A program made the position numbers and the translations under genes. Positions 41,328-42,535 of a DNA stretch of 47,777 bases are shown one piece after another. Origin of the DNA: an uncultured Alphaproteobacteria bacterium (lineage in GTDB: Bacteria > Pseudomonadota > Alphaproteobacteria > HIMB59 > GCA-002718135); contig CACEMP010000010.1 in the NCBI GenBank assembly GCA_902560675.1, forward strand, positions 1-47,777, written 5' to 3'. The notes beneath the pieces are model-generated. The model was not told where the DNA came from, did no database searches, and saw nothing but the letters and a program-made list of their open reading frames with translations. Position 1 is the first letter of the stretch. Each line of letters opens with the position of its first letter.

Positions 41328-41867
41328 TTGGCCATTAACTTTAAATCAAAGAAAGATATTGGTCCAAGAATCAATGAGCAAATAACCGCTAGTGAAGTTA
41401 GGCTAATATCAAGTAATGGAAAACAGTTAGGAATATTAAGTATTCGTGAAGCCCTTATTCAAGCCGAAGATGAAGGATTTGATCTGGTTGAGGTTTCTCC
41501 AGAGGCAAACCCACCAGTTTGTAAAATTATTGATTATGGGAAATTAAAATATAGAGAACAAAAAAGTAAAAAAGAGGCAAAAAAGAAACAAAAAACAATA
41601 GAAGTTAAAGAAATCAAAATGAGACCTGGCATAGATACACACGATTATAATGTAAAAGTCAAAGCTCTTTCAAAATTTATTGGAGGAGGAAATAAGGTAA
41701 AGGTATCAATGCGTTTTAAAGGTAGAGAGATGGAGCATCAAAATTTAGGTTTTGATCTCTTAAAAAAACTTACAACAGAGGTCGAGGAATACGCAAAGGT
41801 AGAGGTGGCTCCAAAATTTGAGGGAAAACAAATAATGATGATTTTAGTCCCACAAGTTGCAAAATAA
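41328..41867 (+). CDS. infC: Translation initiation factor IF-3, non-ATG start
   Basis: About 178-179 residues. GPRINEQITASEVRLI starts the N-domain, and the C-domain has VKEIKMRPGIDTHDYNVK, VSMRFKGREMEHQNLG and the final IMMILVPQ. IF-3 keeps 30S subunits free and checks the start codon. No in-frame ATG exists between the upstream stop TAA at 41307 and residue 98, so translation must begin at a poor codon: TTG 41328 (used here), ATC 41325, ATA 41322 or ATT 41334. Poor start codons let IF-3 limit its own synthesis, as known for E. coli infC (AUU). It heads the infC-rpmI-rplT-pheS-pheT group, with 101 bp before rpmI. Confidence 0.95.
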   Translation: MAINFKSKKDIGPRINEQITASEVRLISSNGKQLGILSIREALIQAEDEGFDLVEVSPEANPPVCKIIDYGKLKYREQKSKKEAKKKQKTIEVKEIKMRPGIDTHDYNVKVKALSKFIGGGNKVKVSMRFKGREMEHQNLGFDLLKKLTTEVEEYAKVEVAPKFEGKQIMMILVPQVAK

Positions 41868-41904
41868 TTCTAAATATTGCAAAAGATCTATTTTTCAGTA
41901 TAAG

Positions 41905-41943
41905 CCGTTAAAACTTGTTATGGCCTGCGGGGCAGCCTAACGG
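41905..41943 (+). promoter_or_regulatory. Structured GC-rich leader of rpmI-rplT (candidate L20-type autoregulatory RNA)
   Basis: The 101 nt between infC and rpmI contain the most GC-rich non-coding stretch of the window. A hairpin can form at 41917-41941: GUUA pairs with UAAC, GGC with GCC and UGC with GCA, with single-base bulges at 41921 and 41925 and a three-G loop. An alternative stem pairs CCGTTA (41905-41910) with TAACGG (41938-41943), and the two pairings exclude each other. The hairpin ends 15 nt before the Shine-Dalgarno of rpmI. Ribosomal protein L20 represses this operon through mRNA structure in E. coli and Bacillus, so an analogous switch is plausible. Structure is by eye only. 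Confidence 0.6.
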
Positions 41944-41956
41944 TAAACTTAAAATA

Positions 41957-41962
41957 AAGGAG
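41957..41962 (+). promoter_or_regulatory. Strong Shine-Dalgarno fixing the rpmI start
   Basis: AAGGAG lies 6 nt before ATG 41969. It shows that the true start of rpmI is this ATG and not the in-frame TTG at 41915, which would translate through the leader hairpin. Confidence 0.85.
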
Positions 41963-41968
41963 ATATCA

Positions 41969-42169
41969 ATGCCCAAGCTTAAAACTAAGAGTAGTTTAAA
42001 AAAAAGATTTTCAAGAACAGGAACGGGCAAAATTAAATTTAAACCTGCTGGAAAAAGGCACGGAATGAGTAAACGCTCCAACAAATTTATTCGTAACACT
42101 AAAAGATCAGCAATAATGTCATCTGGGGACTCCGCTTTGATTGATCACATGTTACCATATAATAAGTAG
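41969..42169 (+). CDS. rpmI: 50S ribosomal protein L35
   Basis: A 66-residue basic ribosomal protein of normal length. [14 protein letters not shown] at the start, [20 protein letters not shown] in the middle and the [10 protein letters not shown] end are the L35 pattern. It is placed by a strong AAGGAG site and preceded by a GC-rich hairpin that could control L35/L20 synthesis. rplT follows after 12 bp containing GGGGAG. Confidence 0.97.
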
Positions 42170-42181
42170 GGGAGATTAATT

Positions 42182-42535
42182 ATGGCAAGGGTATCAAGAG
42201 GTGTTACAGCAAGAGCAAGACACAAGAAAGTTATTAAAAGAGCAAAAGGTTATTACGGTAGAAGAAAAAATGTATTCAGAGTAGCAGTTCAAGCTGTTGA
42301 GAGAGGAATGCAGTATGCCTATAGAGATCGTAAAAAAAGAAAAAGTGATTTTAGAGGTCTTTGGATACAACGAATCAATGCTGGAGTGAGGATGCATGGC
42401 ATAACATATTCTCAATTTATTTCAGGCTTAAAAAAATCATCTATTGAAATTGATAGAAAGATTTTAGCTGATCTCGCAGTTAATCAGCCTGATGTATTTA
42501 AGGCATTAGTTGATAAAGCTCAATCTGCTAGATAA
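42182..42535 (+). CDS. rplT: 50S ribosomal protein L20
   Basis: A 117-residue protein needed for early 50S assembly. [28 protein letters not shown] is the long basic N-terminal helix; [24 protein letters not shown] and the globular end ([21 protein letters not shown]) are canonical. L20 is the usual repressor of its own operon through mRNA binding. GGGGAG lies before the ATG. pheS follows after 31 bp, a gap containing a perfect TATAAT at 42551-42556 that might give an extra promoter, though no good -35 accompanies it. Confidence 0.98.

Follow-up and report, generated by a model that had tools for sequence, protein, structure and literature searches.

The L20 translational operator of the rpmI-rplT operon of E. 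coli is the one reportedly described by Guillier in 2002 and 2005. In E. coli, L20 represses this operon (PMC10931766, PMC6962249), while in B. subtilis it represses the infC operon, with a transcription attenuator upstream of infC (PMC10931766). The E. coli leader combines an irregular hairpin with a long-range pseudoknot whose end lies six bases upstream of the rpmI start (PMC10931766, PMC6962249). L20 sites are said to share two consecutive G-C pairs and the docking of an AA dimer, as in helices 40-41 of 23S rRNA, and the L20 leaders listed in a survey of ribosomal leaders come from Gammaproteobacteria, Firmicutes, and Deltaproteobacteria, none of them being alphaproteobacterial (PMC7247131).

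Here, we consider the 101 non-coding bases between infC and rpmI in a stretch of 47,777 nucleotides (the window), whose genus counts about 100 species in the genome collection and whose nearest named relatives are single-cell genomes of uncultured marine Alphaproteobacteria. The sequence comparisons indicate that the leader upstream of rpmI-rplT is a real RNA structure, common to most Alphaproteobacteria, and that it consists of a hairpin whose loop pairs with the start and second codons of rpmI (Table 1). It is very probable that we are dealing with a class-wide, undescribed operator of the L20 type, which base-pairs across the start codon as far as codon 2, co-evolves with residue 2 of L35 (Pro or Ser), and is lost together with the leader, as in SAR11. 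Somewhat less firmly, but still with good probability, the element can be assigned as a cis-acting translational operator of rpmI-rplT, that is, a pseudoknot repressed by L20, where the binding of L20 and the direction of control are what we infer. The initial annotation had suggested a structured alphaproteobacterial leader, possibly of a distinct class, and the strong compensatory change and the lack of an Rfam match bear this out.

Table 1. Features of the infC-rpmI-rplT region, with positions in the window
Feature	Positions	Strand	Remarks
infC	41328-41867	+	gene order infC, rpmI, rplT
-35-like hexamer TTGCAA	41877-41882	+	promoter conserved in genus leaders
-10-like hexamer TATAAG	41899-41904	+	kept in the genus and across the family's other genera
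CCGTTA	41905-41910	+	spacer between -10 box and predicted transcription start; rejected as pairing partner
Predicted transcription start (+/-2 nt)	41911	+	placed 7 nt past the -10 hexamer
P1 outer stem, 5' strand GTTA	41917-41920	+	covaries with 41938-41941; U41921 bulged
P2, 5' strand GGC	41922-41924	+	alignment A1
Anti-start GGGCA, hairpin-loop strand of pseudoknot	41930-41934	+	complementary to UGCCC 41970-41974
P2, 3' strand GCC	41935-41937	+	directly adjoins the anti-start
P1 outer stem, 3' strand TAAC	41938-41941	+	covariation in the genus
Shine-Dalgarno AAGGAG	41957-41962	+	inside the long pseudoknot loop; read from the sequence
rpmI, ribosomal protein L35	41969-42169	+	PF01632, 69.7 bits
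TGCCC of rpmI start (Met-Pro), start-codon strand	41970-41974	+	pairs with GGGCA
rplT, ribosomal protein L20 (presumed repressor)	42182-42535	+	ORF with L20 start, assigned by reading the sequence

Comparison with Known L20 Systems

The leader resembles the E. coli operator in that it belongs to the same operon, places a pseudoknot at the rpmI initiation region, and is presumably repressed by L20. However, the pseudoknot is here local (about 60 nt): the loop of a single hairpin pairs with the first two codons of rpmI. The E. coli pseudoknot begins at the 3' end of infC, whereas the conserved region starts here after the promoter, and no second L20 site was identified. The L20_leader of Firmicutes (RF00558) shares the infC-rpmI-rplT genes and the ligand L20, but it lies upstream of infC and operates by transcription attenuation (PMC10931766), while the present leader precedes rpmI. 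The deltaproteobacterial candidate is similar in that it, too, has two consecutive G-C pairs and was put forward as an independent L20 scaffold; it relies, however, on the AA dimer, which is inconsistent in the alphaproteobacterial element (PMC7247131).

One half of the L20 signature is present here, namely two consecutive invariant G-C pairs (columns 15-35 and 16-34, with zero variation in the 66 rows of alignment A1). An AA dimer within 4 nt 5' of the anti-start is found in 42 of 99 leaders, and no clear likeness was apparent between the leader and helices 40-41 in the 23S rRNA of the same genome. L20 is proposed as the ligand because it is encoded in the operon and is the known repressor of the same operon in E. 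coli and of the infC operon in B. subtilis. By this analogy, the likeliest reading is that the element works like an L20 operator, with at most a putative place among the rRNA mimics.

We have also considered that the pseudoknot is real but responds to a signal other than L20, such as L35, another factor, or temperature, or that it sets a fixed low level of initiation by slowing the binding of the 30S subunit. The covariation proves the pairing and not the ligand, and the hallmarks of L20 sites are only partly present, which leaves this option some weight; it is nevertheless unlikely, considering that L20 regulates this operon in two distant groups (PMC10931766) and that the two invariant consecutive G-C pairs constitute one half of the L20 signature (PMC7247131).

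In Rfam, neither the window nor 20 alphaproteobacterial loci gave anything at the gathering score, and RF00558 was absent among the matches up to E 10. The element is not reported in the alphaproteobacterial and SAR11 RNA surveys (PMC1273637, PMC2704228), and no alphaproteobacterial rpmI leader was found in the literature searched, whose coverage excluded subscription journals. The switch has probably not been described so far.

Promoter and Leader Hairpin

In 41 of the 44 distinct genus leaders, TTGCAA or TTGATT is followed after 16 nt by TATAAG or TATAAA, with the stem 12-13 nt further on. A strict sigma-70 consensus scan did not report the TTGCAA promoter, and a scan for intrinsic terminators found none. 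With the promoter just upstream, the leader would start with the hairpin. The CCGTTA stretch is hypervariable, with 29 variants among the 44 genus leaders and CCGTT in only two of them, unlike CUUGUUAUGGCCUGCGGGGCAGCCUAACGG, which is preserved across these leaders. Since CCGTTA comes right after the -10 box and belongs to this hypervariable stretch, it can be regarded as promoter spacer that is probably not in the mRNA.

This result bears on the two-state switch that the initial annotation had put forward, in which TAACGG has CCGTTA and GTTA as alternative partners. The three motifs do occur where it located them, with TAACGG at 41938-41943 and the Shine-Dalgarno sequence 13 nt 3' of it; both pairings are possible on paper, and the one with CCGTTA appears in the minimum-energy fold of 41900-41968. 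However, the location of CCGTTA in the variable spacer, probably upstream of the transcription start, makes such a switch very improbable. The proposal also omitted the key pairing, in which the loop sequence GGGCA binds the start codon of rpmI.

The other pairing of that proposal, GTTA/TAAC extended by GGC/GCC, is conserved, and its covariation is evident even between leaders of the genus. P1 is GUUA/UAAC in 35 of the 44 distinct genus leaders, GCUA/UAGC in 6, GUUA/UAAU in 2, and GUUG/CAAC in 1, and the forms ACUA/UAGU and GCUA/UAGU occur elsewhere in the family. Two G-C pairs of P2 are constant in A1, and the third shows one change from C-G to U-A. The inner UGC/GCA pairing that was suggested to continue this stem is retained in 43 of the 44 genus leaders but is missing from other genera of the family (L037, L098, L099), and the bulge of the window hairpin lies at a position unlike that of the class consensus.

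The covariation in related leaders that the initial annotation had proposed to look for is thus found within the genus, and it extends to the class. Double changes occur in 10 of the 12 stem pairs of the class hairpin, amounting to 159 double-change cells versus 74.6 (sd 8.4) in shuffles, and the covariation score is 0.380 as compared to 0.161 for shuffled alignments and at most 0.213 for slid versions. The folding energy, proposed as a second check, turned out otherwise: the window leader, taken alone, folds no better than dinucleotide shuffles (z of -0.08 for 41868-41985 and +0.24 for 41900-41968). By the energy yardstick of the initial annotation itself, this would refute the finding. The covariation overrides this outcome, and the element is accordingly visible by comparison only.

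Predicted Pseudoknot at the rpmI Start Codon

The class loop ends in GGGCA(U), which reads as the reverse complement of AUGCCC, the Met-Pro start of rpmI. None of the 44 genus leaders has lost GGGCA, not even the one relative in which UGC is broken. In the window the pairing comprises only 5 pairs, the A of AUG being without a partner. Of 127 leaders, 66 contain a 6-nt stretch perfectly complementary to their own start hexamer, as compared to 4.6 expected from dinucleotide shuffles.

The pattern used to pick the motif rows requires G at X5, C or U at X3, and AU at X2-X1, which leaves the X4 and X6 columns as the only free tests. At X4, the match to the first codon-2 base is complete, with 95 C-G and 4 U-A among the 99 loci. 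X6 matches the third base in 88 of 99 loci, with 11 mismatched, versus 64.3 when the codons are shuffled; with one locus per family, the match is 68 of 77 versus 50.8 expected. In alignment A2, pairing holds in 98.4% of the cells, with 13 double-change cells versus 1.7 (sd 1.2) expected, while slid partners pair in 3 to 47%.

The pairing follows changes in the second residue of L35. With a Met-Ser start (AUGUCC), the leader reads GGACA(U) in seven families (f6, f36, f52, f86, f112, f130, f134), and since f6, f36, f52, and f112 also hold CCC/GGG members, the GGACA/UCC double change must have arisen repeatedly. One Ser2 locus (L239) has no recognizable motif. The starts AUGCCG, AUGCCA, and AUGCCT are often paired with the loops CGGCAU, UGGCAU, and AGGCAU, respectively. 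The calculated duplex energy is -9.2 kcal/mol for the window and -10.3 kcal/mol for the class form, but only -3.1 kcal/mol for the mismatched GGACAU/AUGCCC. These changes are difficult to reconcile with a hairpin that merely protects the 5' end of the mRNA and whose GGGCAU match is fortuitous; such a role would suit a hairpin with which the predicted transcript begins, but considering that loop and start codon show compensatory changes in seven families and that a 6-nt start complement occurs at about 14 times the expected rate, it can hardly be credited.

No nucleotides separate the anti-start from GCC, and loop 1 shrinks to 1 nt in several species. This arrangement, together with the Shine-Dalgarno sequence in the long loop, points to a classical H-type pseudoknot. 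In the genus leaders, GCA (41932-41934) can alternatively pair with UGC (41926-41928), and an exchange between hairpin and pseudoknot may thus be possible in the window's genus.

In a frequent variant (L070, L072, L092, L094, L214, and others), GGGCUGCC replaces GGGCAUGCC, by which the pairing with the start codon would shrink to GGGC/GCCC. Separately, the TTG-initiated in-frame extension of rpmI (41915-42169) can be read through in the window and some relatives and was judged non-coding. A short upstream ORF that uses the AUG in GGGCAUGCC, or an L35 lengthened at its N terminus from TTG 41915, can be dismissed as the least probable reading of all: the class consensus does contain the AUG and the window an in-frame 84-codon frame, but the window's family (GGGGCAGCC) and the GGGCUGCC form lack the AUG and most relatives have an open frame of only 69 aa.

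Codon 2 of rpmI reflects the same pairing. In the long frames of the window, 26 of 393 Pro codons are CCC, and yet CCC is codon 2 of rpmI in 44 of 44 genus leaders and in 31 of 31 leaders of the sister family f2. In the AT-rich SAR11 (Pelagibacteraceae), codon 2 is CCA in 19, CCT in 5, and CCC in none of 24 cases. The comparison indicates that this rare codon is retained in AT-rich relatives where the pairing exists.

Distribution in the Class

The upstream regions of rpmI were taken from one or two genomes per alphaproteobacterial family (set 1) and from the sister family f2 of the same order (set 2). A blind pattern recovers the element upstream of rpmI in 99 of the 127 class loci, corresponding to 77 of the 99 families sampled, and the named carriers include Rhizobium, Roseibium, Stappia, Pseudovibrio, Sneathiella, and Methylorubrum. 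The common class leader is a hairpin closed by GGC/GCC with the loop end [N]GGCA(U) immediately 5' of GCC. Many class leaders (L199, L235, L193, and others) have an extra hairpin between GGC and the anti-start, with the GGGCAU-GCC core kept.

The class element is lost in SAR11 (Pelagibacteraceae loci L285-L327), where rpmI is almost leaderless and directly follows infC, its ATG being about 10-17 nt past a -10 box (TATAAG or similar). The element is also missing in an OCS116 cluster genome, the Rhodobiaceae MAG MED766, and a Hyphomicrobiales MAG (L269, L276, and L282), in which Pro2 is encoded by CCA or CCG.

A search of 120 genomes of the phylum gave no rpmI-like match outside the class, as judged by reading the matched sequences. 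A covariance search of the window's own whole genome yielded no match, and the window leader itself (E 0.17 in another search) was also missed, so that further copies may exist in this genome. The loose pattern GGGCATGCC..ATGCC was rejected, as chance matches dominate in GC-rich genomes, and of the matches to GGACAT..ATGCCC or GGACAT..ATGTCC outside rpmI, three were checked and none was rpmI.

Proposed Mechanism

The mechanism that we propose is as follows. As the comparisons show, P1 and the GGC/GCC P2 form an irregular hairpin, and the 5-6 nt at the end of its loop, GGGCA(U), pair with AUGCCC. In the resulting H-type pseudoknot, the start codon is hidden and the Shine-Dalgarno sequence lies in the long loop. 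Free L20 in excess would bind and stabilize the pseudoknot, closing the start codon to the 30S subunit and lowering the synthesis of L35 and of the coupled L20. When rRNA is available, L20 would depart and the start codon would open.

Conclusions

If feedback by L20 holds true, the element would fill a gap, as such regulation is known in Gammaproteobacteria and Firmicutes while the Alphaproteobacteria, which include many model and marine organisms, had no listed case. The element would represent a functional leader that single-sequence folding misses entirely, and a regulatory RNA that constrains the first codons of a ribosomal-protein gene.
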